Assembly: GCF_947495625.1 (NCBI RefSeq)
Contig: NZ_CANLZW010000004.1
Location: 124,001-188,000, forward strand
Direction: 5' to 3'
DNA length: 64,000 nucleotides
Source: an uncultured Cocleimonas sp.
GTDB taxonomy: Bacteria > Pseudomonadota > Gammaproteobacteria > Thiotrichales > Thiotrichaceae
Part shown: positions 1 through 45,823 of the stretch, piece after piece
Numbering within the stretch: position 1 is the first letter of the stretch
Layout: each line of letters starts with the position of its first letter
The notes under the pieces: model-generated
What the model saw: the letters and a program-made list of their open reading frames with translations, nothing else
What the model was told of the DNA's origin: nothing
Databases searched by the model: none
Translations under genes and position numbers: made by a program

Positions 1-1
1 A

Positions 2-1422: not shown

Positions 1423-1431
1423 ATAAATATC

Positions 1432-3162: not shown

Positions 3163-3268
3163 AATAAGTTTTCTTTGGTGCTCATAAATTTAAAAACAGT
3201 TAATAAATACCAGATAATTAATTGATAACGAATTAACGAGTTAAAGCCTGAGCAAAAAAGTAAAAAGA

Positions 3269-10142: not shown

Positions 10143-11438
10143 ATGAATTACAGGCTTTCAAAAAAGTTACATCAACGCATAATCCTATTGATCACACTTA
10201 GTTTTAGTTTGTTTGTCAGTGCATGTAATGGCGGTGACAATAAAAAACCAGAAGCCAAAGCTGCAGTGGTTAGACCGGTAAAAACAATCACGGTTAAACC
10301 CGCCAGTAATTCAATAAAGAAAACTTATTCTGCAGTGGTTTTGGCCACTCAACAAGTCGATCTTTCTTTTAGGGTATCAGGTAAATTGCAACAGTTACCG
10401 ATAAAAAATGGAATGGAAGTTAAGAAAGGTGATGTCATTGCGCAACTTGATAAACGTGACTTTCAATCCAAAATCACTCAACTTAAAAGCCAGATAAATC
10501 AAGCCAATGCTCAGATGAAAGCAATGAAAGCAGGCGCAAGACCTGAAGATGTTGCCTCATTAAATTCAGCGGTAACAGCGGCTCAGGCAGAATTGAATCA
10601 AGCTCAAATTCAATTTAACCGTACCGCAGAGTTGGTTAAAAAGCAGGTAATTGCAAGAAATGAGCTGGACAAAGACCGGAGCGCCTTAACCGTTGCAAAA
10701 GCTAATTTAAACAGCAAAAAGCAAGAATTACGCAAAGGTAAAACTGGCGGTAGAAAAGAAGATGTTTCTGCACAGGTTGCTGTCATTCAAGGCTTGCAAT
10801 CGCAACTTAAAAATCTTGAAGATACTTTGGCTGATGCCACTTTACGCGCACCTTTTGACGGCAGAATTTCATCGCGTCAAGTTGAAAATTTTGCCAACGT
10901 TCAAGCAAAAGAGTCTATCGCAACCATCCAGAAAACCTCTTCTGAAATTGATATTGTTTTTAATATCCCTGCGCCTGATATCGTGATACTTGTTCCTATT
11001 AAAGATCAATTGAAATCGACTGTTGTGTTAGATAGTTTTCCAGGAAAAGAGTTTCCGGCAGAACAGCGCGAATTTTCTAGCGAAGCAGATTCAGCTACAC
11101 AAACCTACCAGGGGCGTGTTGCTATCAAGAACTCTAAAGGCGAGCCAATACTTCCAGGTATGACCGGTAATTTAATTGTAACGGGTAATAGCGGTAACAG
11201 TGATAAATACTCATTACCAGTAGCAGCAATAGCTTCCCTACCTTCAGGAAATCCATTTGTTTGGGTAGTTGATGATGCCAATAAAGTGTCAAAACGTGAT
11301 ATCACTATAGGCGAAGCTACAGGAGCGAATGTAGCAGTTTCTAAGGGCATCAAAACCGGAGATGTGGTTGTCACTGCGGGGATATCCGCTTTACAAGATG
11401 GAATGCAAGTAAAACCAATCACCGCTGTTGGAGAATAA
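10143..11438 (+). CDS. RND efflux periplasmic adaptor lipoprotein (HlyD/AcrA family)
   Basis: Membrane fusion subunit of a tripartite efflux pump. The signal sequence carries a lipobox FVSAC with acylated C28. A barrel-sandwich half follows (QVDLSFRVSGKLQQLPIKNG, then MEVKKGDVIAQLD), then a long alpha-helical hairpin (about residues 115-240, rich in Gln/Ala/Lys), then TLRAPFDGRISSRQVENFA as the returning half-lipoyl domain. It ends 4 bp before the permease ATG at 11443, so the pair forms an operon. Its job is to link the inner-membrane permease to a TolC-like channel; no channel gene is nearby. Confidence 0.92.
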   Translation: MNYRLSKKLHQRIILLITLSFSLFVSACNGGDNKKPEAKAAVVRPVKTITVKPASNSIKKTYSAVVLATQQVDLSFRVSGKLQQLPIKNGMEVKKGDVIAQLDKRDFQSKITQLKSQINQANAQMKAMKAGARPEDVASLNSAVTAAQAELNQAQIQFNRTAELVKKQVIARNELDKDRSALTVAKANLNSKKQELRKGKTGGRKEDVSAQVAVIQGLQSQLKNLEDTLADATLRAPFDGRISSRQVENFANVQAKESIATIQKTSSEIDIVFNIPAPDIVILVPIKDQLKSTVVLDSFPGKEFPAEQREFSSEADSATQTYQGRVAIKNSKGEPILPGMTGNLIVTGNSGNSDKYSLPVAAIASLPSGNPFVWVVDDANKVSKRDITIGEATGANVAVSKGIKTGDVVVTAGISALQDGMQVKPITAVGE

Positions 11439-11442
11439 TCGC

Positions 11443-14400: not shown

Positions 14401-14487
14401 GGCCTAAGCTTTGCAACGATTTTAACACTGATTATTGTCCCGACTTTATATGCGATTTTCTTTGGGGTTAAAAAGGATGAAGTCTAG
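11443..14487 (+). CDS. RND multidrug efflux permease (AcrB/HAE-1 type)
   Basis: Proton-driven inner-membrane exporter of about 1014 residues. Topology is typical: TM1 at MNLAKFAIEKRVVSALLTLL, a large periplasmic loop, TM2-6, the proton-relay segment LGMLVDNAIVVVDG in TM4, a second periplasmic loop, then TM8-12 ending in LIIVPTLYAIFFG. The start MNLAKFAIEKR (11443) is preferred over an upstream TTG at 11428, because it matches family N-termini and does not overlap the adaptor gene. The second loop is rich in conserved gating elements (GGGHLRFML, RWRGQYG-like). The substrate is not predictable. It follows the adaptor gene and is followed after 19 bp by a K+ channel gene. Confidence 0.93.
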   Translation: MNLAKFAIEKRVVSALLTLLILFGGYLAYTLLPRFEDPEFIVRQVKIITPYQGASATEVADEVTDVVENAVQQLQGVKEVKSVSSIGLSEVTLEFTISSTKTRPQLNQKFSQLRAKISDITNQLPPGSSPPIVYDDFGDVYALYFAITGDGYSLAEIKTYAKSLQKELVLVPGVSKVLIAGDPTEVIYVEYNPSKLAQLGFSSGQVAQLLEGQNLVTSAGSVDAGNTRLTIRPSSAVSSLANIEELVIVNAQSGRSFRLKDIATVKRGVKEPESKLLYRDGKPAIGIGISNTIGGNVVNMGDAVNARIAALESQRPLGMQLSVISDQSVSVRTSVNDFVVNVMLALAIVVGTLLIFMGLRSGLLMGGILLVTVAGTLIGMYFYGLNLQRISLGALIIALGMLVDNAIVVVDGTLVRIKKGESPKEASIAVVEQTKWPLLGGTVVGFLAFSAIGFSPDNTGEYAGSLFWTITISLLFSWLIAIWLTPYFCTLFLKAEAASTKVKKEHFILSGYRKILTGFLRFRWVTLGLVLALFAAAVVSFGQVKQGFFPTSTRAQFVIDYTLPQGTTFNKTNSDLNEVSDWVRKLEGVTGTNRVVGGGHLRFMLTYSAESGNAAYGQLLVDVEDYQQITDLLPKIQTHLDSTYPNAISKVWKFVLGPGGGSLIQARFTGKDPVVLRELAEQTKSIYSKQGAISVKDDWREMVKVIRPKINEQNARRVGLSQSDISKAIDEFFNGTTVGLYREADELRSIVFRPNAENRKDVKNIRDIEIFSQSSGRYIPITQVVDDFGVVFENAKLQRYNRSLAIMAEADPAPDVDVSEVFAKIKPEVEALNLPDGYKLEWRGQYGDGNDANAGLASTFPYGFGAMIIVVFLLFNAIKQPIIIYLTVPLAIIGVVFGLIALRTPMEFMAILGMLSLTGMLIKNAIVLIDQTDSEIADGKARMAAVIDAAVSRVRPVSLGVLTTVLGVVPLLSDPFFRSLAVVIICGLSFATILTLIIVPTLYAIFFGVKKDEV

Positions 14488-19610: not shown

Positions 19611-20324
19611 TTAGTAGTTACTCAGCCTTCCATCAACCAGCGAGTAAATCTTATCCATCTTTTCAGCAAGTTGCATATCGTGGGTAACGATAACAAATGC
19701 GGTTTGCATTTCCTGATTGAGGCTTTGCATCAAATCAAATATTTGTAGTGCCGTTTTATGATCAAGGTTTCCTGTTGGCTCGTCAGCCAATACCGCATTC
19801 GGATTGGTTACCAATGCTCTGGCTATGGCTGCACGTTGACGTTCACCACCTGAAAGTTGACCCGGCTTATGAGACAACCTTTCAGAGAGTCCCACCTTAT
19901 TAAGAATTTCACTGGCTTTGCTACTGGCTTCAGTTGTAGATAATCCACGAATCAGCAATGGCATTGCGACGTTTTCCAGCGCAGTGAATTCGGGTAGTAA
20001 GTGATGGAATTGATAGATAAAACCTAGAGACTGGTTACGTAAATCTCCGCGTTCTTTATCACTGAGCTTGGCAATATTTTTACCCATGACACGCACAGTA
20101 CCTTCGGTTGGAAGATCAAGCCCACCCAGGATATGTAGCAAGGTACTTTTACCACTGCCAGAACTACCCACGATGGCTATTTTTTCTCCGGCGCTAATAT
20201 CAAGTGAAATACCTTTGAGTACTTCAACGTCTAACTTACCTTCTTTAAAACGTTTGGTAAGGTTTTCACACGCAATTACCTTGTCTATTCCATTATTATT
20301 AGTTTCAGTCATTGTTTTACTCAT
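19611..20324 (-). CDS. lolD: LolD, ATPase of the lipoprotein-releasing ABC transporter
   Basis: Energises release of outer-membrane lipoproteins from the inner membrane to LolA. About 237 residues with Walker [11 protein letters not shown]-loop [10 protein letters not shown], signature LSGGERQR, Walker [13 protein letters not shown] and switch His in VTHD. The start [11 protein letters not shown] at 20324 overlaps the upstream permease stop (ATGAGTAA), giving translational coupling; the second ATG at 20312 is an alternative. A longer open frame to 20405 runs into the permease gene and is rejected. Third gene of a permease-permease-ATPase operon. Confidence 0.95.
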
Positions 20325-21609
20325 AGCGAAGCGCTTCAGCGGGTTGGACTTTAGATGCTTTCCACGCAGGAAAAATGGTTGCCAGTATAGATAACAGGAA
20401 GGCACTGATAGAAATCAAGATCACATCTCCCCATTCAATTTTTGCATCGATGTGCGTGATACCGTGAATTTCGGCATTCAATAGCTGAACATTTATCAGG
20501 TGCTCGATTCCTTGAACGATAGCGCTGACATTACTCGCAACCAATACACCCAGCAGCACACCAATAACGGTTCCTATTAAAGCCAGTAATCCACCTTGCA
20601 CGATAAAAACCCGCATTACTTGTGCCGGTGACATGCCTAAGGTTCTGAGGATAGCGATGTCAGATTCTTTATCAGTAACGACCATAATCAAGGTAGAGAC
20701 AAGATTAAATGCAGCCACACCAATGATCAGAAGCAAGACTAGAAAAAGCATGGTTTTCTGTAATTGCAAAGCTTTAAAGAATGTTGAGTGCTGTGTTGTC
20801 CAATTAGTAATTACGTAGTCACCGTTAGAATTTTCAGCTATCTCTTTTGTGACTTGATTCGCCATAAATATATCGGAAATCTGGGCGCGTATTCCTGTTA
20901 CTTCTTTATCCATTCCAAACAGTTCAGCAGCGTCGTCCATGTGAATGTAAGCAACCGACTTATCATAGATATTTAAATCTACTTTGAATGTGGCAGCGAC
21001 TTCAAAATCCTTCAGTATCGGAATCAAATCATCAGGGTTTTGTGACTCTCCGTCATTCGTAAAACTCTGTTGTTTAGGACTTAACAGAGTGATTGTTTCG
21101 CCGATAGAAACATCCAGGGTTTTCGCTAGTGTTTCACCCAGTATTATTTTATATTCGCCAGATTTAAGTACATTCAAACTCACCGCTTCTGTTGTCCCTT
21201 CAGGCGTTTGAATATAGCGGTTGATTGTACCGATATCTTTTTCTAAATCAGGCAAAACACCTTCCAGTAAAGTTGCCTGAACAGTATCAGCTTCTTTAAG
21301 CATCACCTGTTTTTCTATGAATGGTGCAGCTCCGGTAACCTGAGTATTTTCCAGTATCTGATTACGACGGTTTTCCCATTGGGGTAGTACCCAGTCCGAA
21401 TCAGAAACGGTAACGTGAGAAAGCATCCCTAAGTGACGATCTTGAATACCTTTGACATAACCATTCATGATTGACAGAACAGTAATCAAAACAATGATAC
21501 CCAGCGCAATTCCTATCACTGAGGCCAATGAAATGAATGAAATAAAGTGGTTGTCTTTCTTCGCCTTGGTATAGCGAAAACCGATAAAAGCGGATAGTGG
21601 CTGAAACAT
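20317..21609 (-). CDS. lolE: Lipoprotein-releasing system permease (LolC/LolE family)
   Basis: 430-residue FtsX-type permease with the LolC/E start pattern [31 protein letters not shown]. It has TM1 near 27-49, a large periplasmic domain (about 50-270), TM2-4 in the last third, and the C-terminus AEALRYE. It partners LolD (overlap 8 bp) and the homologous upstream permease (41 bp away), so the three make a LolCDE-like complex. The assignment as LolE rather than LolC is from gene order only. Confidence 0.9.
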
Positions 21610-21650
21610 ATACTTAAATTTCGCTCTTATTGCTTATTAAATTAATCAGT

Positions 21651-22901
21651 TTATTCATAACGCAAAGACTCAGCAGGTTGAACTTTAGCGGCGCGACTTG
21701 CAGGATATAACGTTGCTAAAATTGCGAGAACAAACGATGCGATTGAAATGCCTATCACTTGTTTAAAATCCACGACTGATGGAAATTTAGAACTAGCGTA
21801 GAACAAATCCTGAGGCAATAACTCGATATTGAAGAGTGTTTCTATCCATTCAACAATTGTGCCGATATTCAGTGCCAGTAATACACCTAAAATCGCCCCG
21901 AGAATCGCACCGAACAAACCGATAATAATCCCCTGAACCATGAATATTCGTTTGACCTGTTTGGCCGACATACCTTGGGTACGTAGAATCGCGATATCAG
22001 CTTGCTTGTCATTCACCACCATCACTAGCGATGAAACCAGGTTAAACACTGCGACCAGTACAATCAAAAACAGGATGAAGAACATCACTACTTTTTCAGT
22101 CTTCTGGACTTGAAACAGGCTTTTGTTTTCTTGTCCCCAATCAGTAACCGTAAATTCATCACCGAGTTTTTCAGATAATTCTTTTGATACTGAAGGCGCA
22201 TCAAATAAATCGGTTAATTTTAAACGAATACCCGTGACATTCTCTTTGGTTGAAAACAGCTTGGAGGCGTCTTGCATATGTATAAATGCTGTCGCGCTAT
22301 CATATTCTGCCATATTGATTTTATACACGGCAACCACGGTAAAGCGTTTACTTCTGGGAATCATGCCAGCGGGAGTGACTCTAAACCTGGGTGTTACAAC
22401 CGTTACCTTATCCCCTGGGAACACACCTAGTTGTTGCGCAAGTTCTACGCCTAAGGCAATACCATATCCACGCGGTTGAAGATCATCAAAACTGCCTTCC
22501 AGCATTCGATTATGCACACCCCCCACCTTTGGCTGCTCTTTTGGTAAAATTCCTTCGAGTAAAACGCCACGAAGTTCACCATTTGCGCTTAACATAACCT
22601 GATTTCTGATGAATGGTGCAGAGCCAATAACTTCTGGCATATCAACAAGTTCCTGCTGTTGTTTCCGCCAATCTGAGAGCAAACCGTTTGTCTCACTAAT
22701 GGTGACATGCGAAACCATGCTTAGTATTCTATCCCTAAGCTCTTTCTCGAACCCATTCATTACGGAAAGAACGGTAATAAGTACAAGAACCCCAAATAAT
22801 ATCCCAAGCATGGAAGCCAAGGAAATAAACGATATAAAGTTATTTTTGTGCTTTGAGCGTGTGTAACGCAAACCGACAAAGAGTTCTAATGGTTTAAACA
22901 T
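21651..22901 (-). CDS. lolC: Lipoprotein-releasing system permease (LolC/LolE family)
   Basis: 416 residues, paralogous to the next gene along most of its length: [30 protein letters not shown] at the start, VMNGFEKELRDRIL, FIRNQVM, and AESLRYE at the end. It has one N-terminal TM, a periplasmic domain and three C-terminal TMs. First gene of the lol operon. Residues P124-H130 (PKVGGVH) are encoded by a stretch that matches the window's dispersed repeat (16 bp identical to copy 6). The paralog aligns here without a gap (LEKDIGTIN), so the reading frame length is unaffected. LolC versus LolE naming is provisional. Confidence 0.9.
   Translation of the reverse strand: MFKPLELFVGLRYTRSKHKNNFISFISLASMLGILFGVLVLITVLSVMNGFEKELRDRILSMVSHVTISETNGLLSDWRKQQQELVDMPEVIGSAPFIRNQVMLSANGELRGVLLEGILPKEQPKVGGVHNRMLEGSFDDLQPRGYGIALGVELAQQLGVFPGDKVTVVTPRFRVTPAGMIPRSKRFTVVAVYKINMAEYDSATAFIHMQDASKLFSTKENVTGIRLKLTDLFDAPSVSKELSEKLGDEFTVTDWGQENKSLFQVQKTEKVVMFFILFLIVLVAVFNLVSSLVMVVNDKQADIAILRTQGMSAKQVKRIFMVQGIIIGLFGAILGAILGVLLALNIGTIVEWIETLFNIELLPQDLFYASSKFPSVVDFKQVIGISIASFVLAILATLYPASRAAKVQPAESLRYE
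22517..22544 (+). repeat. Dispersed-repeat-like sequence inside lolC/E coding region
   Basis: CACCCCCCACCTTTGGCTGC then TCTTTTGG. The first 16 bp are identical to copy 6 at 17794-17809. It is the only copy within the body of a gene. Confidence 0.55.
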
Positions 22902-23377: not shown

Positions 23378-26300
23378 ATGTCTAAAAAGTTTACCACTTA
23401 CACGTGGGCGTTCCTTCCGTTCGTCTTCAGTTCAGCTGCAGTTCTTACATCACCTTCATTTGCTGCACCATCAGCATCACAACAATATCAAGATGGCCAT
23501 TATGAAGATGCCAGACAAGTAAGCCGGGCAAACCATGAATATGTAGGTGGTAGAACCAGTATTGGAGCTGGTGTTACAGATGACGGCGACGTCGATGTAG
23601 AATTTAATCAGGTAATTTCAGAAGGTCAAAACCACAGTACTGGAGTTGGACTCTGGGCAGGTTATGATATAGAAGGTGAGGACAAAGGCTTATTAGATCG
23701 CGGCGTTCAAGTTAATCATAACTGGGTCTCACGCGATAAATTGGGCAATGCTTCACACGTAAATAAAATATTTGCAGCATACGATAAAAACGAAGCAGGT
23801 CATGATAAAGCTACTGTCGGTTATGGTCGTGAAAATCAGAACTTATTCTGGGATGCACACGTAAGTAAAGGTTTATCTGGTCGAAAAGATTCAAGACCTG
23901 TTGATGGTAAAATAGTAAGCGATCGTGCCTATGATTACGGTGTAGGTGGAACTATCGGTAAATTTATTCCTGATGCTAATGTGCGTGTACGTGCCGGATT
24001 AGATCATGAATGGAGTGATAAAGTTGGCGCTGGAGAGAAAGATGCTCGCAATACTACTTTATCTGCTGGATTAGAAAAATTCTTCCAGGGAACAGGCCAC
24101 AGTGTATCCGTTGATGTTTCAGGCTCTAAACGCAGCGGTGGTTATAATGATGGTGGAAGCTCAGATGCAGATGTAAGCGGACGTGTTGGCTATCGTTACG
24201 ACTTTGGAAGTGCATTCCGCGCCGAATCGACAACTCGTCGAGTTCGTGTAGAAGTACCGGGGAAAGCAACACCACCTCGTTATGAACAACGCACACAATA
24301 TAAACGTGTACCGACTTACAAAACAGTCCCTGTTTATGGAAATAAAAACGTTGGCACCGGCAAAAAACGTTTAGTTAAAAGCACTATGGAACTTGAAGGA
24401 CAAACGTTCTTTAAACTCAATAGTTCTAAATTAATTCCTTCTGCAAAAACCCGTTTACTTCAAGTCGCTGCAGAAATTCGTAAAACAGGTTATAAGGGTA
24501 ATATCCGAATCACTGGTAATACCTGCGGTTTAGGTGATGCCGTATATGACCAGATTTTATCTGAGAAACGTGCAAATTCTGTAAAGAAATTCTTAATTAA
24601 AAACGGTTTCAACCCTGATCATCTGGTTTCTCGTGGTTTAGGTAAAGCTCATCCCAAATATCCTAACGTACCAGGACAAGGGTTCAAAAATCGACGTGTC
24701 GATATCGAATACGTTACAGAATCCCAGCGTTATGTTGAAGACAAAACGGCACAACAAAGAGTACAAACAGGCACCCGTCAAGTAGTCAGTGGTTTCAAAA
24801 ATGTTCCCAATGGCACAAAAAATGTCATGATTGATAGCGGACAACCAGGAACACCACGCGTTATCTGGAAAACCGAAACAATCAAAAATTCACCGGCCTG
24901 GATTACCCGTGCGCTTCACAATAATATTAAGCACGATAGAAGTGTTAATACTTATCAAACTACCGAAGGTTCTACGACTACCCCTGGCAATCAAGGCCCA
25001 GTCGCGACTAATGATTCGACAAAAGTAGAATGTGGTCAATCAGTAGCAATTAATGTTCTTGCTAACGATACAGATGTCAATAACGACACATTAAATGTAA
25101 CAAGCTTTACCCAGCCTTCAAACGGTACGGTTAGTCGTGGAGCGAATAACGAACTCATTTATACGGCTAATGGCGGTGGTTGTGGTGTTGATGATCAATT
25201 CACTTATACGATTTCTGATGGAAATGGTGGAACAGATACAGCAACTGTAACAATCTCGGTTGAAGCTGATGATAAAGTAGTCGCAGCAAATGAAGTAAGT
25301 GCAACAGAAGAAGGCGAAGCAGTGACTATCGATGTGCTCAGCAACGATGATGCCGATGCGACTATTACTCGTGTCGTAGCTGCAGCTGCTAATGGTGTGG
25401 TTTCGATTGTAAATGGCAAGTTGGTATATACCCCAAACCCGGGCTTCTATGGTACTGACAAGTTTACTTATGAAGTTAAAGATCCTAGTGGCAATGTTGA
25501 CACCGCTACGGTAACAGTAACCGTTAAAAAACCTGAAAATTCAGCACCTATTGCTGTGGGCGAAACTACACCGACACAAATGGGACAAGCCGTTACACTT
25601 AATATTCTAGATAATGATTCAGACCCTGAAAATGATACATTAACCATTACCAATGTCAGTGACCCAGCACATGGTACGGCAGTTATCAGAGGTGGTCAGA
25701 TTATTTATACGCCAGATGCTGGTTATGTCGGTACTGACAGCTTTACATACACCATTTCCGACGGTAATGGCGGCAATGCAACAGCGACTGAAACGATTAC
25801 GATCACAGGTTCTACAAATCCTACCAACTCTGCACCAGTAGCGACAGATGACAATGCAACTACGCCTGTCAATCAAGCAGTGACACTGACTACCTTATCT
25901 AATGATACAGACCCAGACGGTGATGCTTTAACAATATCAAACGTAAGCAACCCACAAAATGGAACCGCAGTCATTCGTGGTGGAGAAATCATATACACTC
26001 CGGATACTGATTTTGTTGGTACTGAAACATTCACATACACAATATCTGATGGCAATGGCAATACTGCAACAGCGACTGAAACAGTAATTGTTACAGCCTC
26101 TGGTAACGCAATACCGAATGCGGTCAATGATGCTAGTAAAGTGGCTTGTAATGATGACGTTGTGATCAATGTGTTATCGAATGATACCGACACCGATGGA
26201 AACACCTTATCTGTCAGCAGTTTCACACAGCCAGCCAATGGTTCGGTAACTCAAGGATCTAATGGCACTCTGATCTATACCTCTAACGGTGCAGCTTGTG

Positions 26301-27820
26301 ATATTGATGATAAATTCACATACACAGTTTCAGACGGTAGCGGCGGCTCAGATACAGCAACAGTGACTGTCGTTGTCGACCCTGCTGCTAACTCAGCTCC
26401 TGTTGCCGTGGATGATAATAAAACAACATTACAGAATACTCCGGTAAGTTTTAATAGCTTAACGAATGATTCCGACCCAGAGAATGATACTTTAACAATC
26501 ACAGCTGTTGGTTCTCCTTCTCATGGTTCTGCCGAAATCAGTGGTAATCAAATCATATATACACCTGATAATGGTTATGTCGGTCAGGATTCATTTAGCT
26601 ACACTATTTCAGATGGCAAAGGCAACACTGCAACAGCAACTGAAACAGTTACAATAACTGCAGTAGTTGAGCCGAATAAAATGCCCGTTGCCAAGGATGA
26701 CTCTGTAACAACAAATCAAGACACCCCAGTAACCTTGAATACTTTATCAAATGATTCTGATCCTGATGGAGACACACTCACAATCACCAGCATAGGTAAT
26801 CCATCTAATGGTAAAGCGGTAATTAATGGCGATAAGATAGTGTATACACCAGAAGCAGGATTTGTTGGAGAGGACTCTTTCACCTACTTTATTTCGGATG
26901 GTAAAGGTGGCACTGCAACAGCAATTGAAACTATTACCATTAAGGCAGTAGTTGTGCCTAATAAAGCACCGATTGCTAAAGATGATTCCACTACTACACC
27001 GGAAGCAACTGCAGTGACATTAGCTACCCTTTCTAATGATTCTGACCCTGATGGTGATAACTTGACCATTACTAATGTAGATAAACCTGCAAACGGTGCA
27101 GCAGTTATTAAGGGTCAAACTATAGTTTACACACCAAAAGCTGGTTTCTCTGGGTCAGATAAATTCCAGTACACTATCTCTGATGGTAATGGCGGAACGG
27201 CAACGGCTACTGAAACTGTTATTGTAACAGCGGTTAACAAAGCACCTAATGCCGTAAAAGACACAGCAACAACAGGTTGTAGTGTTATCACTATTGATGT
27301 TTTAGGTAATGATACAGATCCAGATGGTGATACATTGGAGTTAGTTAGCGTAACCGGTGCAAACCTGGGTACTGCTACAGTTTCAGGTAACAGCATTGTT
27401 TACACTCCTTTAAATACCTGTGGTAAAGGTGATACAGGTGTTGATAGCCTAAGTTATACCATCTCTGATAAAAAAGGACATACAGCTACTGGTGATGTTA
27501 TCGTTAATGTGGAAGGTGTTACAGGTACTTCCACTATCGATGCTGAATCAGATGATGTAACAACGACTAAAGGAACAGCGATAACCATAAATGCACTTGC
27601 AAATGATGGCGGCGATGGTTTACAAATCATAGCGGTAGATTCTGGTAGTAACGGAAATGCAGTCATTAGTGGAAATCAAATCGTATATACACCTTTTGCT
27701 GGCTTTACCGGTACAGAAAATATCTGGTATGACATAAAGGATGAAAATGGGCACCTTGATTCAGCATTAATCGTAATATTTGTCGAAGAAGGTTGTCCTA
27801 CAGGTACTAAATGTAACTAG
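23378..27820 (+). CDS. Giant OmpA-anchored surface protein with ten Ig/cadherin-like repeats
   Basis: 1480 residues. Signal peptide (about 1-29, cleavage near SFAAPS). Residues about 35-285 are barrel-like strands (HSTGVGLWAGYDIEG, ATVGYGRENQNLFWDA, DVSGRVGYRYDFG). Residues about 337-450 are an OmpA peptidoglycan-binding domain with NSSKLIPSAKTRL, LSEKRANSVKKFL, SRGLGKAHP and NRRVDIEY. From residue 538, ten repeats of about 90-95 residues follow (NxAPxAxDD...TLxNDSDPDGDxLTI...G..I.YTP..G..G.D.FTYTISDGxGxTATAT), the tandem-95 / Big_9 type. Repeats 1, 5 and 9 carry cysteine pairs and the C-terminus has GCPTGTKC. Probably an adhesin or matrix protein. The arrangement of barrel, peptidoglycan anchor and Ig stalk resembles inverse autotransporters by analogy only. 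Confidence 0.85.
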   Translation: MSKKFTTYTWAFLPFVFSSAAVLTSPSFAAPSASQQYQDGHYEDARQVSRANHEYVGGRTSIGAGVTDDGDVDVEFNQVISEGQNHSTGVGLWAGYDIEGEDKGLLDRGVQVNHNWVSRDKLGNASHVNKIFAAYDKNEAGHDKATVGYGRENQNLFWDAHVSKGLSGRKDSRPVDGKIVSDRAYDYGVGGTIGKFIPDANVRVRAGLDHEWSDKVGAGEKDARNTTLSAGLEKFFQGTGHSVSVDVSGSKRSGGYNDGGSSDADVSGRVGYRYDFGSAFRAESTTRRVRVEVPGKATPPRYEQRTQYKRVPTYKTVPVYGNKNVGTGKKRLVKSTMELEGQTFFKLNSSKLIPSAKTRLLQVAAEIRKTGYKGNIRITGNTCGLGDAVYDQILSEKRANSVKKFLIKNGFNPDHLVSRGLGKAHPKYPNVPGQGFKNRRVDIEYVTESQRYVEDKTAQQRVQTGTRQVVSGFKNVPNGTKNVMIDSGQPGTPRVIWKTETIKNSPAWITRALHNNIKHDRSVNTYQTTEGSTTTPGNQGPVATNDSTKVECGQSVAINVLANDTDVNNDTLNVTSFTQPSNGTVSRGANNELIYTANGGGCGVDDQFTYTISDGNGGTDTATVTISVEADDKVVAANEVSATEEGEAVTIDVLSNDDADATITRVVAAAANGVVSIVNGKLVYTPNPGFYGTDKFTYEVKDPSGNVDTATVTVTVKKPENSAPIAVGETTPTQMGQAVTLNILDNDSDPENDTLTITNVSDPAHGTAVIRGGQIIYTPDAGYVGTDSFTYTISDGNGGNATATETITITGSTNPTNSAPVATDDNATTPVNQAVTLTTLSNDTDPDGDALTISNVSNPQNGTAVIRGGEIIYTPDTDFVGTETFTYTISDGNGNTATATETVIVTASGNAIPNAVNDASKVACNDDVVINVLSNDTDTDGNTLSVSSFTQPANGSVTQGSNGTLIYTSNGAACDIDDKFTYTVSDGSGGSDTATVTVVVDPAANSAPVAVDDNKTTLQNTPVSFNSLTNDSDPENDTLTITAVGSPSHGSAEISGNQIIYTPDNGYVGQDSFSYTISDGKGNTATATETVTITAVVEPNKMPVAKDDSVTTNQDTPVTLNTLSNDSDPDGDTLTITSIGNPSNGKAVINGDKIVYTPEAGFVGEDSFTYFISDGKGGTATAIETITIKAVVVPNKAPIAKDDSTTTPEATAVTLATLSNDSDPDGDNLTITNVDKPANGAAVIKGQTIVYTPKAGFSGSDKFQYTISDGNGGTATATETVIVTAVNKAPNAVKDTATTGCSVITIDVLGNDTDPDGDTLELVSVTGANLGTATVSGNSIVYTPLNTCGKGDTGVDSLSYTISDKKGHTATGDVIVNVEGVTGTSTIDAESDDVTTTKGTAITINALANDGGDGLQIIAVDSGSNGNAVISGNQIVYTPFAGFTGTENIWYDIKDENGHLDSALIVIFVEEGCPTGTKCN
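24989..27793 (+). repeat. Ten tandem Ig-like coding repeats
   Basis: Imperfect repeats of about 270-290 bp inside the surface-protein gene. Units 3, 4, 6, 7 and 8 are the most alike (TLTIT..., YTISDGNGG...). Units 1, 5 and 9 form a second class with cysteines. Confidence 0.85.
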
Positions 27821-33683: not shown

Positions 33684-34697
33684 TCATTCGACTGTGGGAA
33701 CGTCCATTAAACTAGGGCTATTAAATACTAGATCTGGAAGAGGTATACCAACAACCTCCCTGCTATCTGGACAAGATGTTTTTCTGGGAAAATTATCTAC
33801 AAATGAATATCCATACGTCGTTAGTACTTCAGAAAAATACAGATCACCTTCACTAAAAATATTATATTCTTCAGGAATTATTGTTTCTTGGCCTATTGGA
33901 TCATCCAAATAATATGCTGTTCCTTCAGCCGCATTAATTCTGACATCATCAAGACATACCTCTGCAACTTCCTCAAATAAAGAAACAATATATGCTGTGC
34001 AATCAGCACCATTTTTTAGTCCATCATCAACAAGTGGAATAACTTTTGTTATTTTTGTTTCTGGTCCTATATGAAAAGGGATTTGAGATGGAAACTCATT
34101 GATTAAATGCTGTTTAATGGTTGATATTAATTCTGCTTCATTTTCAAACAAAGATTTTTTTAAATCAGGGACTAACTGTTTTGCCCACATATAATCATAT
34201 TTTTCTAAACCATGTATATATCTATCCTCGGGGCATTCTTGCTGAGCAAAATCTGCACCTAAACAATATACAAACAAGTTACCATCTATGTTTAAACCAT
34301 CTAAACCTAATGTGTAACTCTGATTTTCAGTAGAATTTATTTCTACAGCATAAGCAAACCCATCTGAATCTTTACCTATGTACATAAGCATGTGTGTATA
34401 AATACCAGGAATTGCTCTTGCTAAAATATCGGTGTAATCATTTGTAGAACTTGAGTTATAAAGATCATAACCAACAAAAATCAGATCAAATCGTTCTAAT
34501 GACTGGTAACTTAGTTCTCTTGTATCAGGGTTTATCGCTGAAAAAATATAAGATTTATTCGATAGATAATCAATGGCATACCTATCCACAACATCCTCTT
34601 GTGTAACATTATCTCTAGTTACTGGATTTGAAGTGCTTCCTGAACCACAACCGACTAAACTTAAGAGTATTAATAAGAAAAGAACTAATTTTTTCAT
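33684..34697 (-). CDS. Lipoprotein with possible permuted NlpC/P60 (YiiX-like) fold
   Basis: 337 residues. Lipoprotein signal LLILLSLVGCGSG with acylated C17. The body is not a family I recognise with certainty. SLERFDLIFVGYDLYN, then THMLMYIGKDSDGFAYAVEI (H102), and much later NGADCTAYIVSLFEEV (C233) follow the order DLIFV...H.hhYhG...hhE...C..hhh seen in circularly permuted papain-like YiiX proteins, where His precedes Cys. If so, it would be a periplasmic hydrolase or amidase. Four further cysteines (C145, C155 and two later) could form disulfides. Last of four minus-strand genes that include an ABC exporter. Confidence 0.5.
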   Translation of the reverse strand: MKKLVLFLLILLSLVGCGSGSTSNPVTRDNVTQEDVVDRYAIDYLSNKSYIFSAINPDTRELSYQSLERFDLIFVGYDLYNSSSTNDYTDILARAIPGIYTHMLMYIGKDSDGFAYAVEINSTENQSYTLGLDGLNIDGNLFVYCLGADFAQQECPEDRYIHGLEKYDYMWAKQLVPDLKKSLFENEAELISTIKQHLINEFPSQIPFHIGPETKITKVIPLVDDGLKNGADCTAYIVSLFEEVAEVCLDDVRINAAEGTAYYLDDPIGQETIIPEEYNIFSEGDLYFSEVLTTYGYSFVDNFPRKTSCPDSREVVGIPLPDLVFNSPSLMDVPTVE

Positions 34698-34758
34698 TTA
34701 TGTACACCTAGGAAGAATATTTTATGAAGACTGCAAAATAATAGATTTGTTAATTATT

Positions 34759-35469
34759 TTAGTTAGATTTTAATTTTCCATTGTTTATAGATAAATTCTC
34801 CTCAATAAAAATAATTTTTCCATCTTTCATCTGGATTACAACGTCAGCAAGCTCTGCGACATCTTTATCATGTGTGGCAATTAATATAGTAGAATTGTAT
34901 GTAGATACATAATCCCTCATTTTTACAAGAATTTTTTTAGCTGTCTTTGAATCAACATTGCCGGTAGGTTCGTCAGCTAATAATAATTTAGGTTTATTTA
35001 TTAATGCTCTTGCAATCGCACCACGTTGGCGTTCACCACCTGATATTTTTTCAGGAAAAGAATTCGCATAATGTGCTATATCCATTTCTTCAAGGCTTTC
35101 CATGGCTAGGTTTTTTCTTTCTAATAGAGTAAATCGATGTATAGGTAAAAGTGCCGATTCAACATTTTCACGTAATGTTAAAACAGGAATAAGATGGTGA
35201 AACTGAAAAACAAAACCAACAAATTCCTGCCTAAATTTAGACATGGATAAGATTTCATCTTTATGAGTACCTTCATAAGTGATGTCGCCACTAGTGGCAT
35301 TATCCAATGTGCCTATTATATTTAGAAGAGAACTCTTACCACACCCGGAAGCCCCCATTAATGCATATATTTTTCCATGTTCTAGCACTAGATCTACACC
35401 ATTTAATGCCCGTATAAGACCATCCTCATATATTTTATTAATTGCTTTTACTGTTACTAAACTACTCAT
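34759..35469 (-). CDS. LolD/MacB-like ABC exporter ATPase
   Basis: About 236 residues with Walker A GASGCGKSS, QFHHLIPVLT after the Q-loop, signature ISGGERQR, Walker [13 protein letters not shown] and switch His in IATHD. This is the type-VII (LolCDE/MacB/FtsE) ATPase group, which drives extrusion of lipoproteins or periplasmic cargo rather than transport through the membrane. The start MSSLVTVKAINK (35469) overlaps the permease stop (ATGAGTAG). The longer frame to 35505 is rejected because it runs back into the permease gene. By eye this cluster is more AT-rich than its neighbours. Confidence 0.9.
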   Translation of the reverse strand: MSSLVTVKAINKIYEDGLIRALNGVDLVLEHGKIYALMGASGCGKSSLLNIIGTLDNATSGDITYEGTHKDEILSMSKFRQEFVGFVFQFHHLIPVLTLRENVESALLPIHRFTLLERKNLAMESLEEMDIAHYANSFPEKISGGERQRGAIARALINKPKLLLADEPTGNVDSKTAKKILVKMRDYVSTYNSTILIATHDKDVAELADVVIQMKDGKIIFIEENLSINNGKLKSN

Positions 35470-36589
35470 GATGTAACGCCTTAGACACTTGTATTTGAGT
35501 ACCATAAACAGCAGGAAAAATTGTACTAATCAAACCGACCAAAAAGCATATAAACATCACATTAATAAAAATGTCCGGTGATGGTGAATCTGGCAAAAAC
35601 ATATATACAGTTGTGAATTTATTTCTTAGATAAAACATCACTGGATAGGCTGTAATAAAACCTAATATTCCACCAACAAATGATAAAAGTAATGATTCAA
35701 TCAAAATTGTAAAAATAATGTACGACCTTGGCCAACCGATGGCATTTAGTATTCCTATTTCTTTCGTACGCTCACTGATCGCCATAATAAAAGTATTCAA
35801 TAAAACCGCAACAGCAATAACAAGGGTTAAAAGTGATACAATTTTTGAAAAGAAAAAAACACTCTTTATCGGCCCCATATAATCAGGAAGCTGTAAACTT
35901 TCTATTGCCCTCATTTCAGGGAATTGATTATTAATCAGATTTACAACTCGCTTTGTATCATTGCTATCTTTAAGTGACAAAAAAAGTAAGCTCGAAAAGC
36001 CCTTCTTACCTGTCAGTTTTTGTGATAATTCTAGATCTAAAATTATTCCAGAATTTAAAAAATTTAACCAACTAGAGTAAATACCCGTGACGATATATTC
36101 ATTACCCCCGTCGAGTTTGATTTTATCCCCAATTCCTAAGTTAAGTACCTTTGATAATTTATCCCCAATAACAAGTTCAGAGCTTTTATCAGATATCTGT
36201 CTGCCTTCTATGATATTGAAACCTAATCTTTGGGCAAAAACAGAATAATTAGATACTCCTAAAAGAAATACCGATGATTCTCCCCTCACTCGTTTCTTAC
36301 TAATTAAAATCGATTCACTATCTTTGACAGATTTATAATTAGTTATTTCATTCACAATAGCAGAGGATATTTTTGATGAAACTGGTGAAGATGCATATCT
36401 TGCTTGTACCGCAATATCAACATCTTGTTGGTTAGTAACTCTATTGATTTGAGAGGTAAATGAATTTCCTACACTTGTTAGAACTGTATAGAGAGTAATA
36501 ATAAGCATGATTGATAAGAGTGTAAAAAATGACCGCATCCGTGATCTAAGAATGTTTCTGGTTGCATATTTTAGAATTGTTATTAGCAC
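35462..36589 (-). CDS. FtsX-like ABC permease (MacB/LolC-type)
   Basis: 375 residues with TM1 at about 18-40 (RSFFTLLSIMLIITLYTVLTS), a periplasmic domain of about 200 residues, and three C-terminal helices. The FtsX signature is SERTKEIGILNAIGWPRSYII. It pairs with the overlapping ATPase gene. No MacA-like adaptor and no outer-membrane channel is encoded nearby, so a mechanotransmission role (lipoprotein extraction or activation of a periplasmic enzyme) is more likely than drug export; this is inference. Confidence 0.88.
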   Translation of the reverse strand: MLITILKYATRNILRSRMRSFFTLLSIMLIITLYTVLTSVGNSFTSQINRVTNQQDVDIAVQARYASSPVSSKISSAIVNEITNYKSVKDSESILISKKRVRGESSVFLLGVSNYSVFAQRLGFNIIEGRQISDKSSELVIGDKLSKVLNLGIGDKIKLDGGNEYIVTGIYSSWLNFLNSGIILDLELSQKLTGKKGFSSLLFLSLKDSNDTKRVVNLINNQFPEMRAIESLQLPDYMGPIKSVFFFSKIVSLLTLVIAVAVLLNTFIMAISERTKEIGILNAIGWPRSYIIFTILIESLLLSFVGGILGFITAYPVMFYLRNKFTTVYMFLPDSPSPDIFINVMFICFLVGLISTIFPAVYGTQIQVSKALHHE

Positions 36590-36709
36590 AATACATCCTT
36601 ATTATAAATTAGTAGGGAGTGTAACTTAACACCATTAACTTAAGGAGCTACTCGCTCTAGCTACACCCCCACTCATCAAACGCTTATCTGACTAAACTTA
36701 AACTTTAAA

Positions 36710-37723
36710 TTACTGACTATCTACGATGTCATCTAAAGATAAGTTTGAACAATCCATAACACCTAACATCTGTTCACCGACAACTACATCGAAGGCATTA
36801 TCTACGGTTGCACTTGGATTCATCACCATAGTTGAACCATCTGAACCTGTTGCAGTAATTGAACCACTTATTAAAACTCCGTTTTCATCTATCTGAAGAT
36901 CAGTTGTTGAAATATTGATAGAGCCAGTATCAGGATCTTTATAAGTCGTTCCTTCTATTTTAATTATGTCATTCACCCCATCGGTGTATCCTGAGATTTT
37001 AACATTAGAGACATTAAATTCTTTATTATCTCTTCCATCAACTATAACTATGGAATTAGCTTCCAATTTATTAGGAGCAGTTACTATAGGATCCGCAAAT
37101 CCATTACCATAGTTGTATAGAAGATTATCAATTTTTGCTACATGGTTATAGATTGCACCTTCTCCAGTCTGTTCTGCAATTTGAAGACCACTACTACCCG
37201 TTGAAACTGCAGTATTCTGGGGGATGGGACCTATATCGCTTGGTACCCCTACATTATCAACATCAAGTACGCCATTTAAAGTTGAACTACCCCCTTCAAC
37301 AAGTATGCAATAATTTGTAAATGTATATGTCACATCATCTACACCATCATCATGTGTTCCTACAATAGAATAAGATCCTGGTACTGCACAATTGCCTTGA
37401 TATTCTTCATTAATATCTCTTGCACTAATTGTGCGAGCGCTTAAATCATCTTTAGCTTTACTTGCGTACTCATCTATTGTGCTTTTGTACAACACCAATA
37501 AATCTTCATTTGAACGGGCGGCTAAAACCGCATCCGCTGATGTGTAAGTACAGCCTGGTAGAGCTTTTGAGACATTATTAGCCATTATATCACCCGTCTC
37601 CGGTGATAACTCAGCTAGTGCAGGATCGGATTCATCACTACTGCTACCACCTCCACAACCAACAACTAAACCTAAAGTCAAGCCAACTGTCGCATACAAT
37701 TTAATTTTAGAATTAAATTTCAT
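36710..37723 (-). CDS. Uncharacterised lipoprotein
   Basis: 337 residues. Lipoprotein signal LGLVVGCGGGSSSDESD with acylated C23 and an acidic Ser-rich tether. The rest is mostly beta-structured with Asp/Gly/Thr-rich stretches (TGSINISTTDLQIDENGVLISGSITATGSDGS). Cysteines at about 58, 112, 139 and near the C-terminus may pair. I do not recognise a family. It lies 120 bp upstream of the FtsX-like permease gene on the same strand, so it may be the first gene of the exporter cluster and a candidate cargo or partner. Confidence 0.6.
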   Translation of the reverse strand: MKFNSKIKLYATVGLTLGLVVGCGGGSSSDESDPALAELSPETGDIMANNVSKALPGCTYTSADAVLAARSNEDLLVLYKSTIDEYASKAKDDLSARTISARDINEEYQGNCAVPGSYSIVGTHDDGVDDVTYTFTNYCILVEGGSSTLNGVLDVDNVGVPSDIGPIPQNTAVSTGSSGLQIAEQTGEGAIYNHVAKIDNLLYNYGNGFADPIVTAPNKLEANSIVIVDGRDNKEFNVSNVKISGYTDGVNDIIKIEGTTYKDPDTGSINISTTDLQIDENGVLISGSITATGSDGSTMVMNPSATVDNAFDVVVGEQMLGVMDCSNLSLDDIVDSQ

Positions 37724-38130: not shown

Positions 38131-38152
38131 CTACTTATATGTAGTTTTTTTA
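38121..38152 (+). repeat. Dispersed repeat, copy 9 (degenerate)
   Basis: TCACACCCCACTACTTATAT then GTAGTTTTTTTA. It overlaps the 3' end of the minus-strand basic lipoprotein gene: the stop TAG (38131-38133) and the last codons lie in the repeat. Confidence 0.6.
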
Positions 38153-38685
38153 AAGAAACTCGATGGTCTTCTATTACTAGAAGATCTTGAACGATTACGA
38201 TTAGAGTTGGATGCGCGATTATGCTGCCTCGCATAATCGCGTTTAGTATGATTTCTCTTTACTCCACTTGTTCTCATCTTGTGAGGTTGTCCGCTTCTAA
38301 CTCTGTTTGTATTACCATTACGTACCCGGTTTGGATGACCATTACTAACTCTATTCGGTTGACTTCCTCGCACACGATTTGGATGACCGTTTTTAACACG
38401 GTTATGATTTCGTTTTATGTGGTTGCGATTATGCTGTTTATTCCGACTTTTATGTTTATGGCCATTGTATCTAGTGGTATACGACCTGGTATTTCGATTG
38501 GGATAACGATTAAAGTAATATGGATTGTAACCAATATAATCATAATCGGAATAATAAGAATCGTAGTAGGGACGATAATAGGTCGACGAACCGGAACCTA
38601 CATAGCCAGAATCAGAATATGGTGGAGCAGAGGTGCAACCATTAATAAGAAAAGCAAAAACTACAACGATACCGAGCTTATACAT
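38131..38685 (-). CDS. Basic, Asn/Arg-repeat lipoprotein
   Basis: About 184 residues. Lipoprotein signal MYKLGIVVVFAFLINGC with acylated Cys in the LINGC lipobox. A Tyr/Ser-rich stretch follows (SYYSDYDYIGYNPYYFNR), then a strongly basic region with repeated HPNRVRNG/QPNRVSNG-type units and many His, Arg and Asn. The start at 38685 is preferred because AAGG lies about 9 bases before it; in-frame ATGs at 38694 and 38730 would put extra residues before the signal. There is no family I recognise. The high charge suggests binding to a polyanion such as LPS, exopolysaccharide or DNA, as inference. The C-terminal FFKKTTYK is encoded by the dispersed repeat. Confidence 0.6.
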   Translation of the reverse strand: MYKLGIVVVFAFLINGCTSAPPYSDSGYVGSGSSTYYRPYYDSYYSDYDYIGYNPYYFNRYPNRNTRSYTTRYNGHKHKSRNKQHNRNHIKRNHNRVKNGHPNRVRGSQPNRVSNGHPNRVRNGNTNRVRSGQPHKMRTSGVKRNHTKRDYARQHNRASNSNRNRSRSSSNRRPSSFFKKTTYK

Positions 38686-38854
38686 TTTATCCATCCTTGG
38701 GGGGTTCATGGAATTTTTATATCTTAACATTGATTTAAGTATCTAAAATAAAACAACATTTATCTTAGTATAGTTAAATATACGCACGGAATACGTTTTT
38801 GGATTGTAATTTTATGTAAAGTCACCCCTCTGTTTATTATCACCACCGATTTAT

Positions 38855-43801: not shown

Positions 43802-44581
43802 ATGAGACAAAACTTCATAAATAATGTTGTTGTTACTCTTCTCGTCTTATTTTTCTCTATCAGCAACCTTTCTTCAGCAAGTGCAGAGTCATGCATTCTA
43901 AAAGCACGTGTGACAAATATCCCACCCTTATATTATAAGGACGATTCTGGAGAATGGTCTGGCTTAACGGTAGACTTAGCGAATGTTTTACTAAATGAAG
44001 TAGGATGTAAAGGCGATTTCGAATCAATTAGCTGGTCACGATCATTAGATTTATTGAAGACGGGTGGAATTGACATGATGATGAATCTTTCAAAAACGAA
44101 AGACAGAGAAAAATTCATTCATTTTATTGGTCCGCAAAGCATCGAAACTGCACAGCTATTAACGAAAAAGAATATAGCCATAGATATTAATTCTTTAGAG
44201 GATTTTAAAAAGTTACCCGGAATTGTTGGATATCAACAAGGCTCTTTTTATGGAAAAGAATTTCATGAAAAACTGAAAAGTGACCCTGAATTTAACGGTA
44301 AATTTGAAGTGGTATTCTCTCAGGAATTTAATCTGAATAAATTGAAATCTGACAGAATAATAGGAATTTTGGGCCAAAACTATAGCGGTGTATCTGCCCA
44401 GAAAGATCTACTCAATAGTAATGAATACAAAGTTCACCCATATATTATTCATCATAATGAAGTGTATTTTGGCTTTTCTAAAAAATCGGTATTGCCTGAA
44501 ATTATCAGTAAATTAAACGAAGCTTACGACAGAGCCACAAATAATAAAGAATTTCATAGAGTCATTGAAAGCTACAAATAA
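43802..44581 (+). CDS. Periplasmic solute-binding-like protein, family 3 (paralog 1)
   Basis: 259 residues. Signal peptide with cleavage near SSASAES (about residue 29), then one SBP family 3 domain: RVTNIPPLYYKDDSGEWSGLTVDL, SWSRSLDLLKTGGIDMMMNLSKTKDREK, and YFGFSKKSV near the end. In importers such proteins bind polar amino acids, but no permease or ATPase is adjacent, and the same fold serves as a sensor or scavenging protein. It is clearly related to the protein encoded at 45041-45823 over its whole length, an apparent tandem duplication. Ends 46 bp before a repeat copy. Confidence 0.85.
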   Translation: MRQNFINNVVVTLLVLFFSISNLSSASAESCILKARVTNIPPLYYKDDSGEWSGLTVDLANVLLNEVGCKGDFESISWSRSLDLLKTGGIDMMMNLSKTKDREKFIHFIGPQSIETAQLLTKKNIAIDINSLEDFKKLPGIVGYQQGSFYGKEFHEKLKSDPEFNGKFEVVFSQEFNLNKLKSDRIIGILGQNYSGVSAQKDLLNSNEYKVHPYIIHHNEVYFGFSKKSVLPEIISKLNEAYDRATNNKEFHRVIESYK

Positions 44582-45040
44582 ATATCTATAAGCACCCTGT
44601 TTCATGCTTATTAGTCATATTTTTTTTAAAAAAGTGCCTATAAGTAGGGGGGTGTATTATTAAACCGATATACCTAATAGCTATAGTTGTGCAGCTATCA
44701 TTACCCAGCTTACATTACGTTCTTATTTCGCTTCCTAACTGATATAGAAACAACAATAAAATAACAGCTATTTTTTCCAATACGTTTAAACGAAACCGGA
44801 ACGAAACTAGAATAAGGACAGGACAGAACAAAAGCAAAACAAAACTATAGTTAAACTATTCTGAACTATTTAACGTCCCTACTCTCCATAAGATGATAAA
44901 GGAATTTTATCTTGCCAGTTTTATTTCAAAAACTTATATTGCACATCAATAAATACAAATATGTATCAACGTGCAATGACATACGTAAACTTTTATCTGA
45001 CTCTTTCATTAAAACAGCAACAAATACAGGGGTAAATAGT
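44582..45040. other. Intergenic region, 459 bp
   Basis: Contains repeat copy 11 (44628-44656) and a nearly T-free purine/C-rich strand at about 44788-44845. The open frame that extends the second paralog leftward to 44912 is judged not coding. No RNA gene recognised. Confidence 0.5.
44628..44656 (-). repeat. Dispersed repeat, copy 11 (G-rich strand on +)
   Basis: AAAAAAGTGCCTATAAGTAG then GGGGGTGTA. First of a run of copies in the opposite orientation to those at 4-39 kb. Confidence 0.85.
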
Positions 45041-45823
45041 ATGAAACAGGTTATAAGTATAGTTAATGTACTTGTAGTTGTAGTTGTAGTTGTTTTTATA
45101 TTTTTTAGCAGTACTGCAATCAATGCAGAAACATGCAATATCAATGCACGTGTCACGCAAATTCCTCCATTATTTTATCAAGACGAATCCAAACAATGGG
45201 TTGGTTTAACCATAGATTTAACAAAAGAATTACTCAATGAAGCAAATTGCGACGTACATTTTGAGAATATCAATTGGGCTCGATCACTAGAATTAATGAA
45301 ATCAGGCCAGGTTGATATGATGATGAATATGTCAATTACGGACGAAAGAAAAGAATACATCCACTTTATTGGTCCACATAACAATGAAACGATTCAACTT
45401 TTATTAAAAAAGTCAGTCAATACAGAGATTCAATCCTTGGATGACATCAAAAACTTACCCGGTAAAATTGGCATTCAACATGGGGCATATTTTGGCAAAG
45501 CCTTTAAAGATAAAATAGAAAATGACCCCGTTTTTGCTGATAAATTCGAGAAAACATACTCTCAGGAAAACAACGTTAAAAAACTTAAATTAGGCAGAAT
45601 TATTGGGATATTAAGACAGAATTACAGCGGTGTATCTGCCGAAATTGAATTGATGAAAACCGGGGAATATAAAGTAGACCCATTCGTTATCAACACAAAT
45701 CAGGTTTATTTTGGTTTTTCAAAAAAGTCAGTCCCCACTAATTTGATCAAACAATTAGAACAGGCTTTTGAAAGAGTCACCCTGAAGAAAGGTTTTCAGA
45801 GAGTGATTGATAGTTACAAATAA
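45041..45823 (+). CDS. Periplasmic solute-binding-like protein, family 3 (paralog 2)
   Basis: 260 residues from MKQVISIVNV (45041), preceded by AGGGGT as ribosome site; an upstream ATG at 44912 would place 43 residues before the signal peptide and is rejected. The signal core is an unusual valine run (LVVVVVVVF) encoded by GTAGTT repeats. The mature part parallels paralog 1: RVTQIPPLFYQDESKQWVGLTIDL, NWARSLELMKSGQVDMMMNMS, IHFIGPHN, QVYFGFSKKSVP. The stop codon at 45821-45823 runs into the A-tract of a repeat copy. No transporter membrane subunit nearby. Confidence 0.85.
   Translation: MKQVISIVNVLVVVVVVVFIFFSSTAINAETCNINARVTQIPPLFYQDESKQWVGLTIDLTKELLNEANCDVHFENINWARSLELMKSGQVDMMMNMSITDERKEYIHFIGPHNNETIQLLLKKSVNTEIQSLDDIKNLPGKIGIQHGAYFGKAFKDKIENDPVFADKFEKTYSQENNVKKLKLGRIIGILRQNYSGVSAEIELMKTGEYKVDPFVINTNQVYFGFSKKSVPTNLIKQLEQAFERVTLKKGFQRVIDSYK
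45074..45091 (+). repeat. GTAGTT hexanucleotide repeat (3 units)
   Basis: In-frame microsatellite in the signal peptide of paralog 2, encoding Val-Val units. Slippage would lengthen or shorten the hydrophobic core by two valines. Confidence 0.75.

Follow-up and report, generated by a model that had tools for sequence, protein, structure and literature searches.

A 64,000-nucleotide stretch from the genome of an uncultured Cocleimonas species (assembly GCF_947495625.1, contig NZ_CANLZW010000004.1, positions 124,001 to 188,000), referred to here as the window, carries a minus-strand set of four genes, transcribed in the order lipoX, permease, ATPase and lipo2, in which an ATP-binding cassette (ABC) transporter pair with type VII domains is flanked by two genes for proteins with lipoboxes. 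The lipoX-permease-ATPase core is found in two loci, and in each it is followed by a different candidate enzyme. The set is tentatively read as an ABC module in which lipoX is the constant partner and the lipid-anchored enzyme can be exchanged, and which would extract or present a lipid or acylated substrate in a manner similar to YbbAP-TesA; this is the preferred reading, and it is given somewhat less than an even chance of being correct.

The transporter core and its one relative

Both ABC proteins exceed the cut-offs of the Pfam families they match. The ATPase matches ABC_tran (PF00005; 113 bits, cut-off 25, E 2.2e-32), while the permease matches both FtsX (PF02687; 60.4 bits, cut-off 25.5, E 2.3e-16) and MacB_PCD (PF12704; 53.5 bits, cut-off 27, E 4.9e-14), such that the pair belongs to the type VII (MacB/LolCDE/FtsX) superfamily. 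Hydrophobic segments are found in the permease near residues 18-43, 240-275, 287-321 and 335-366, and the long stretch between the first two is taken as periplasmic. Among NCBIfam models, the ATPase scores highest against LolD (201.5 bits, below the cut-off of 307.75), the ATPases of lactococcin-972 and darobactin exporters ranking next, and fails to reach the cut-off of FtsE (156.3 bits, cut-off 264.85). Similarly, the permease falls short of lolCE (45.5 bits, cut-off 362.45), ADOP (60.6 bits, cut-off 622.3) and FtsX_Gneg (34.2 bits, cut-off 255).

In a tree of 24 ATPases, six duplicate or near-duplicate rows of 30 having been omitted, the protein of the set and that of the second locus, L032, form a pair of their own with support of 100/100, apart from LolD, FtsE and YbbA; the LolD proteins of Escherichia coli and of the window are joined (98/98), and MacB is placed in a weakly supported group (81/69) that excludes the set and L032 ATPases. 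When seven permeases are aligned, those of the set and of L032 are gapped at what we take to be the position of the LolC hook insertion, and both bear a MacB-like SERT(K/R)EIGI motif (SERTKEIGI in the window). Furthermore, a complete lolC-lolE-lolD series is present on the minus strand at 19611-22901, 11 kb from the set, and it is this LolD that pairs with the E. coli protein. Because of the scores below cut-off, the missing hook, the separate ATPase branch and the complete lolCDE nearby, the pair is classed, on sequence grounds, as a type VII machine of its own branch, distinct from LolCDE.

The second locus is a 7.2-kb contig of a metagenome-assembled genome (JALTEE010000299.1), an unclassified bin, with a coverage of about 1.6 according to the contig name. 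Its genes are ordered lipoX, permease, ATPase, DUF2238-like and PhoD-like, the permease and ATPase being 56% and 63% identical to those of the window and retaining an 8-nt overlap. The place of lipo2 is thus taken by a DUF2238-like membrane protein (24.6 bits, slightly under the Pfam cut-off of 26.4) and by a PhoD-like phosphatase with a twin-arginine (Tat-like) signal followed by an LTGC lipobox; here and throughout, lipoboxes and signals were judged by eye. No adaptor or channel is seen in either ABC locus among open reading frames (ORFs) of at least 60 amino acids, the length from which they were listed; shorter precursor peptides were not sought. Within the set there is neither a MacA adaptor nor an outer-membrane channel, and the ATPase and permease are unfused.

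These results sustain part of an earlier interpretation made from the letters of the stretch alone, the sequence-only reading. The four minus-strand genes it listed, as lipoprotein, permease, overlapping ATPase and lipoprotein, are confirmed as ORFs, with an overlap of 8 nt when the ATPase starts at 35469 and a gap of 61 nt between ATPase and lipo2 (Table 1). This ATG is the likely start, being preferred because it fits the family; a start at the initial ATG of the ORF would lie too far upstream. The description of the pair as of FtsX/LolD type stands with respect to its type VII domains, but the ATPase is only LolD-like, not LolD by score or by tree. The reported lack of an adaptor or channel also held, a MacA/AcrA-like and RND pair recognised by eye at 10143-14487 being 19 kb from the set, as did the view that both lipoproteins are of unknown family, neither having a significant Pfam match.

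Table 1. Genes and associated features of the four-gene set, with the divergent gene pair of genome G212.
Feature	Position	Strand	Description
lipoX	36710-37723	-	337 aa, predicted lipoprotein, lipidated Cys 23, lipobox VVGC-GGG, Gly at +2
lipoX, other Cys residues	58, 112, 139, 325		No known family
lipoX-permease gap	36590-36709	-	120 nt, hairpin -30.9 kcal/mol, z -2.5
Permease	35462-36589	-	FtsX/MacB-type, 375 aa, GTG start
ATPase	34759-35469	-	ABC, 236 aa, ATG start at 35469
ATPase motifs			Walker A GASGCGKS, signature ISGGE, Walker B LLLADEP, H-loop
lipo2	33684-34697	-	337 aa, predicted lipoprotein, Cys 17, lipobox LVGC-GSG, Gly at +2
Divergent lipoX/PhoD-like pair	L044 6659-9591		

LipoX, PhoD-like proteins and lipo2

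The lipoX proteins of the two ABC loci show hardly any similarity in sequence. Pairwise phmmer with the window protein does not detect that of L032 (-1.6 bits), and a three-sequence profile gives it 2.4 bits, a value equalled in 23 of 500 shuffles. Compared by phmmer with a second lipoX of the Cocleimonas genome itself, on contig C58, the L032 protein scores 6.7 bits, against 4.0 for the highest of 60 shuffles, and 6.4 in the reverse direction, where the highest shuffle gives 6.8. Global alignment of the window and L032 proteins scores 77, a value not reached in 500 shuffles (highest 76), and pairs all four mature cysteines, as none of the 500 shuffles does; hhalign gives 22.1, the highest of 200 shuffles being 21.4. 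On account of the global alignment, the four matched cysteines, the hhalign score and the position in the operon, the L032 protein is accepted as a lipoX relative.

The C58 copy (29% identical to that of the window, E 3.4e-12) is divergent from a PhoD-like gene (L033 10002-12936), and there is no FtsX match on this contig. An identical divergent arrangement is present in genome G212 (Table 1), again with no such ABC genes adjoining, and the two lipoX proteins concerned are close (269 bits). Relatives of lipoX hence accompany PhoD in three loci besides the window, adjoining it in C58 and G212 and separated from it by three genes' distance in L032, which is the lone lipoX-PhoD locus with ABC and DUF2238-like genes between; the window set itself includes no PhoD-like phosphatase. 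The lipoprotein-PhoD association of the C58 and G212 pairs carries no name. Two further candidates were rejected: a G261 protein (E 2.8e-6), as its mature part did not rise above shuffles (60 per pair), and a 475-amino-acid lipoprotein of genome G411, the likeness of which is confined to the signal and GG(S) linker.

A relative of lipo2 is encoded in G411, 52% identical across the whole length, with an exact start that is uncertain; its sole Pfam match is the lipobox family LPAM_1 (E 0.55). It lies between a mutM-like gene and the unrelated 475-amino-acid lipoprotein; an FtsEX-like ABC pair is found 4.6 kb away in one direction and, in the other, an ABC-2-like pair at 1.7 kb (mutM and both ABC pairs being recognised by eye). 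In this locus (L077 9225-11812, minus strand) it is downstream of, and on the same strand as, that lipoprotein, which has no Pfam match. Both lipo2 sequences retain DLIFVGYD...IPG.[YF]THML.YIGK...E...GADCT, and His102, Glu119 and Cys233 are conserved between the two, in the His-acidic-Cys order of permuted enzymes; we infer that these residues have a catalytic role.

The pattern resembles that of YaeF/YiiX-like permuted NlpC/P60 proteins (Peptidase_C92), which share the His block (IPG.[YF][ST]H...Y.G in the closest subgroup), an acidic residue 17 residues past the His, a subsequent Cys-[ST] and the permuted order. Profiles of Peptidase_C92 were built from the Cocleimonas and related genomes, using 25 of 30 loci. 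The two-sequence lipo2 profile scores 33.3 against the combined profile of 25 proteins, which none of 100 column shuffles equals (highest 23.1), and the two alignments inspected fall on the catalytic-His block. A His-to-Cys pattern, composed after inspecting lipo2, matches 31 of 737 ORFs, namely 25 of the 30 C92 loci and six ORFs that are copies of either lipo2 or the G411 protein, with no others.

A number of results weigh against this assignment, and with it against an enzyme module. No Pfam family matches lipo2 at E <=1. As a single sequence, lipo2 did not match the C92 profiles convincingly: with group one it only equalled the top score among 100 shuffles, with group two it exceeded 100 shuffles and fell below the permease control, and with group three it was below ten shuffles; hhalign with the single sequence detected nothing. 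Even for the pair profile, the score with the first subgroup (28.5) scarcely exceeds the highest of 100 shuffles (28.1), those with the remaining subgroups are 29.8 and, adversely, 20.2, both without shuffle comparison, and the hhalign probability is 24.8%. A signature Tyr is found 7-27 residues before the Cys in the permuted papain-like superfamily, going by residue numbers in the available text of PMC3142127, and is missing here: the window protein has no Tyr at residues 170-232, and the two Tyr of the G411 protein, about 29-31 residues before the Cys, correspond to Phe and Ser in the window. Structure models are too poor to serve as search queries, with mean pLDDT of 33 (lipo2, single-sequence) and 42. 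Beyond the protein itself, no ABC genes of this kind adjoin the G411 relative, and lipo2 is present in one ABC locus only, so that its link to these genes could be a chance neighbourhood; moreover, the known ABC loci number just two, and one of these comes from an unclassified bin, on a contig of 7 kb with low coverage. Lipo2 is treated as a candidate that may work in the manner of a permuted papain-like enzyme; because the family scores fail and the signature Tyr is missing, it is not filed as a member of the YiiX/LRAT-like family.

Proposed function and competing explanations

In the preferred reading, the type VII machine would reside in the inner membrane, probably as two permease and two ATPase chains, with ATP use in the cytoplasm driving movement of the periplasmic domains. 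LipoX would be its constant partner, and a membrane lipid or acylated substrate would be extracted, or presented, to the lipid-anchored enzyme, as in YbbAP-TesA. We infer the homodimer, the physical complex, the enzyme activity, the substrate and the direction. By the +2 rule, under which lipoproteins with Gly at +2 go to the outer membrane, both lipoproteins of the set would be located there. What favours such a module is the presence of a lipobox-bearing candidate hydrolase after the ABC genes in each locus, lipo2 in one and the PhoD-like protein in the other. The core order and overlap kept in L032, the C92 profile score and His-to-Cys pattern of lipo2, and the lipoX-PhoD pairs of two genomes also speak for it. 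In the portions of the literature available, permuted papain-like enzymes are described as having hydrophobic pockets and in some cases acting on lipids: YiiX has been co-crystallised with a fatty acid, lipoprotein N-acylation requires LnsA together with LnsB, and Tox-Act1 is a phospholipase (PMC3142127, PMC7387801, PMC12994826).

The closest parallel is YbbAP-TesA, in which a type VII machine is again encoded next to an exported enzyme whose substrates are likely of lipid type, with no adaptor or channel. The enzymes differ, however, as TesA is a GDSL esterase and is not known to be a lipoprotein, whereas lipo2 is a predicted lipoprotein and a candidate for another enzyme class; no GDSL family is found among the Pfam matches of the four genes. 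From what is accessible of PMC12646458, the 2025 description of this type VII transporter coupled to a lipid hydrolase, YbbP has 804 amino acids and two periplasmic domains, compared with 375 and one in the permease here, and no lipoX-like partner is named. According to the same text, it is a recurring theme that what a type VII system does is set by its partner protein. The more far-reaching proposal is that the set represents a new class, a functional, modular relative of YbbAP-TesA in which lipoX is constant and a membrane-anchored enzyme, either permuted papain-like or PhoD-like, is exchangeable, and in which the machine would extract lipids or the acyl ends of lipoproteins from the inner membrane and pass them to that enzyme; this is regarded as rather unlikely.

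The main rival is that the pair is a dedicated lipoprotein-release pump, extracting its own lipoproteins (lipoX together with lipo2 or PhoD) from the inner membrane and passing them to the outer membrane in parallel to LolCDE, with which it has the superfamily and the association with lipoproteins in common. This was one of the two hypotheses of the sequence-only reading, the other being a system for activating an envelope enzyme, and it is kept as possible, if doubtful. Both non-ABC genes of the set encode predicted lipoproteins with Gly at +2, two of the three in L032 bear lipoboxes, and LolD is the best NCBIfam match of the ATPase. It is weakened by the complete lolCDE nearby and by the permease having no LolC hook, which serves the docking of LolA as far as the available text of PMC8333309 describes it. 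In addition, there is a single permease gene here rather than lolC and lolE, the cut-offs of LolD and LolCE are not reached, and the ATPase forms a separate branch. The co-conservation on which the hypothesis was to be judged is mixed: lipoX is found in both ABC loci, but lipo2 in only one of the two, and the relatives of lipoX in C58 and G212 and of lipo2 in G411 have no ABC genes of this kind adjoining, so that these lipoproteins need not have a private pump.

Mechanotransmission of the FtsEX kind is considered improbable. It would have the ABC pair activate an envelope enzyme (lipo2 or PhoD), perhaps one acting on peptidoglycan or another wall polymer, through lipoX as an EnvC-like go-between. 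The superfamily is shared, the combination of a constant non-enzyme partner with an enzyme resembles the layout of FtsEX, EnvC and amidase, and peptidoglycan hydrolases occur among NlpC/P60 relatives, according to the available text of PMC3142127 and PMC12994826. Nevertheless, the periplasmic domain of the permease is of the MacB type (PF12704), FtsX_Gneg and FtsE both score far below their cut-offs, the ATPase is outside the FtsE clade, and in lipo2 the His precedes the Cys, as in the permuted branch.

Less probable again is a MacB-kind exporter of small molecules or peptides that borrows an adaptor and TolC, with the lipoproteins as immunity proteins, accessories or mere neighbours: the MacB_PCD domain, the SERTKEIGI motif and the ranking of the lactococcin-972 and darobactin ATPases are in its favour, but unlike MacAB-TolC the set has no MacA and an ATPase separate from the permease, and what both loci keep is the lipoX core rather than an adaptor or channel. 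The remaining probability falls to none of these four readings.

Rarity, genomic setting and wider meaning

The four-gene set is rare. Across 95 genomes, consisting of the Cocleimonas genome and 94 relatives (75 of the 95 with a completeness of 90% or more and little contamination), lipo2 and lipoX are each found in one, the Cocleimonas genome itself, where lipoX has two copies; permease matches occur in 79, those outside this genome being generic only (best E 5.5e-16). Short permease patterns, a means of detecting close relatives only, were scanned once across 84,980 species genomes and gave 40 candidate stretches, of which L032 alone was confirmed. With a permease profile, five of 369 genomes of the class matched at E 1e-25, at most five candidates being scored per genome; Cocleimonas reached 751.5 bits and the other four 91-98 bits, which we take to be generic, leaving no additional ABC locus of this kind in these genomes. 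Nor was any found in 17 genomes around, and including, L032. Searches of 369 genomes of the class recovered lipoX in three (Cocleimonas, G212 and G261, the last later dropped) and lipo2 in two (Cocleimonas and G411), and among 370 genomes around G411 lipo2 was found in G411 alone. Both G212 and G411 were apparently within the sample searched for the permease, and neither is among the five with a match. In a plasmid collection, 17 records had partial permease matches, none covering 80%, and the lipoproteins were unmatched; viral contigs matched neither permease nor lipo2. A PADLOC search for defence systems yielded only generic ATPase matches together with LolE-TM matches, none of which exceeded 40.5 bits, and the solved structures searched gave nothing useful.

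The AT-richness that the sequence-only reading took as a possible sign of transfer is real. The GC content of 1-kb windows is 0.30-0.36 within the set versus about 0.40-0.44 farther out on both flanks, and third-position GC of the four genes (0.180, 0.203, 0.219 and 0.250) ranks 1, 2, 3 and 6 among the 41 window genes listed. Composition alone does not establish transfer, because other stretches of the window, at 1-3200, 43.8-45.8 and 47.8-48.4 kb, are equally AT-rich, but together with the absence of both lipoproteins from the 94 relatives it suggests horizontal acquisition. No flanking repeats resembling element ends were evident by eye among 25 of the 30 inverted pairs listed. The neighbourhood was not recovered in relatives: of 11 stretches taken from six, 10 from five were compared with 26 window genes, and the ABC genes were the sole matches, which is uninformative.

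The hairpin in the gap between lipoX and the permease folds as well in only five of 200 shuffles; the corresponding gap of L032 folds too, yet is matched by 44 of 200 of its shuffles. It is a possible attenuator or mRNA stabiliser, and lipoX may thus be expressed at a level different from that of the ABC genes. Promoter-like sites show no excess (20, against 26.9 in shuffles) and terminator-like sites barely any (4, against 2.4).

Several neighbouring features were also recorded. Just upstream of the set, a predicted lipoprotein at 38131-38730 (minus strand) is rich in His, Asn and Arg, contains repeats such as NRV(R/S)NGHP and has no family match. The AT-rich stretch at 43802-45823 (plus strand) encodes tandem look-alike small solute-binding proteins, the second of which was scanned and matches SBP_bac_3, followed by ankyrin-repeat proteins. 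At 23378-27820 (plus strand) a secreted protein of 1480 amino acids is encoded, which, as judged by eye, combines a middle part resembling OmpA with numerous Ig-like repeat domains of the VCBS type.

In line with the sequence-only reading, no named system with this content, and no description of it, came to light in the open-access literature searched. That a rare type VII ABC pair should occur next to lipoproteins is unsurprising, and the novel part would be the exchangeable enzyme slot. If the proposed module is correct, it would provide a handle on the lipoX and lipo2 families, which have no known function, and on the little-understood permuted papain-like enzymes of bacteria. As a second layout unlike the first, in which the partner is a lipoprotein and the anchored enzymes can be swapped, it would suggest that coupling of the YbbAP-TesA type is a general design.

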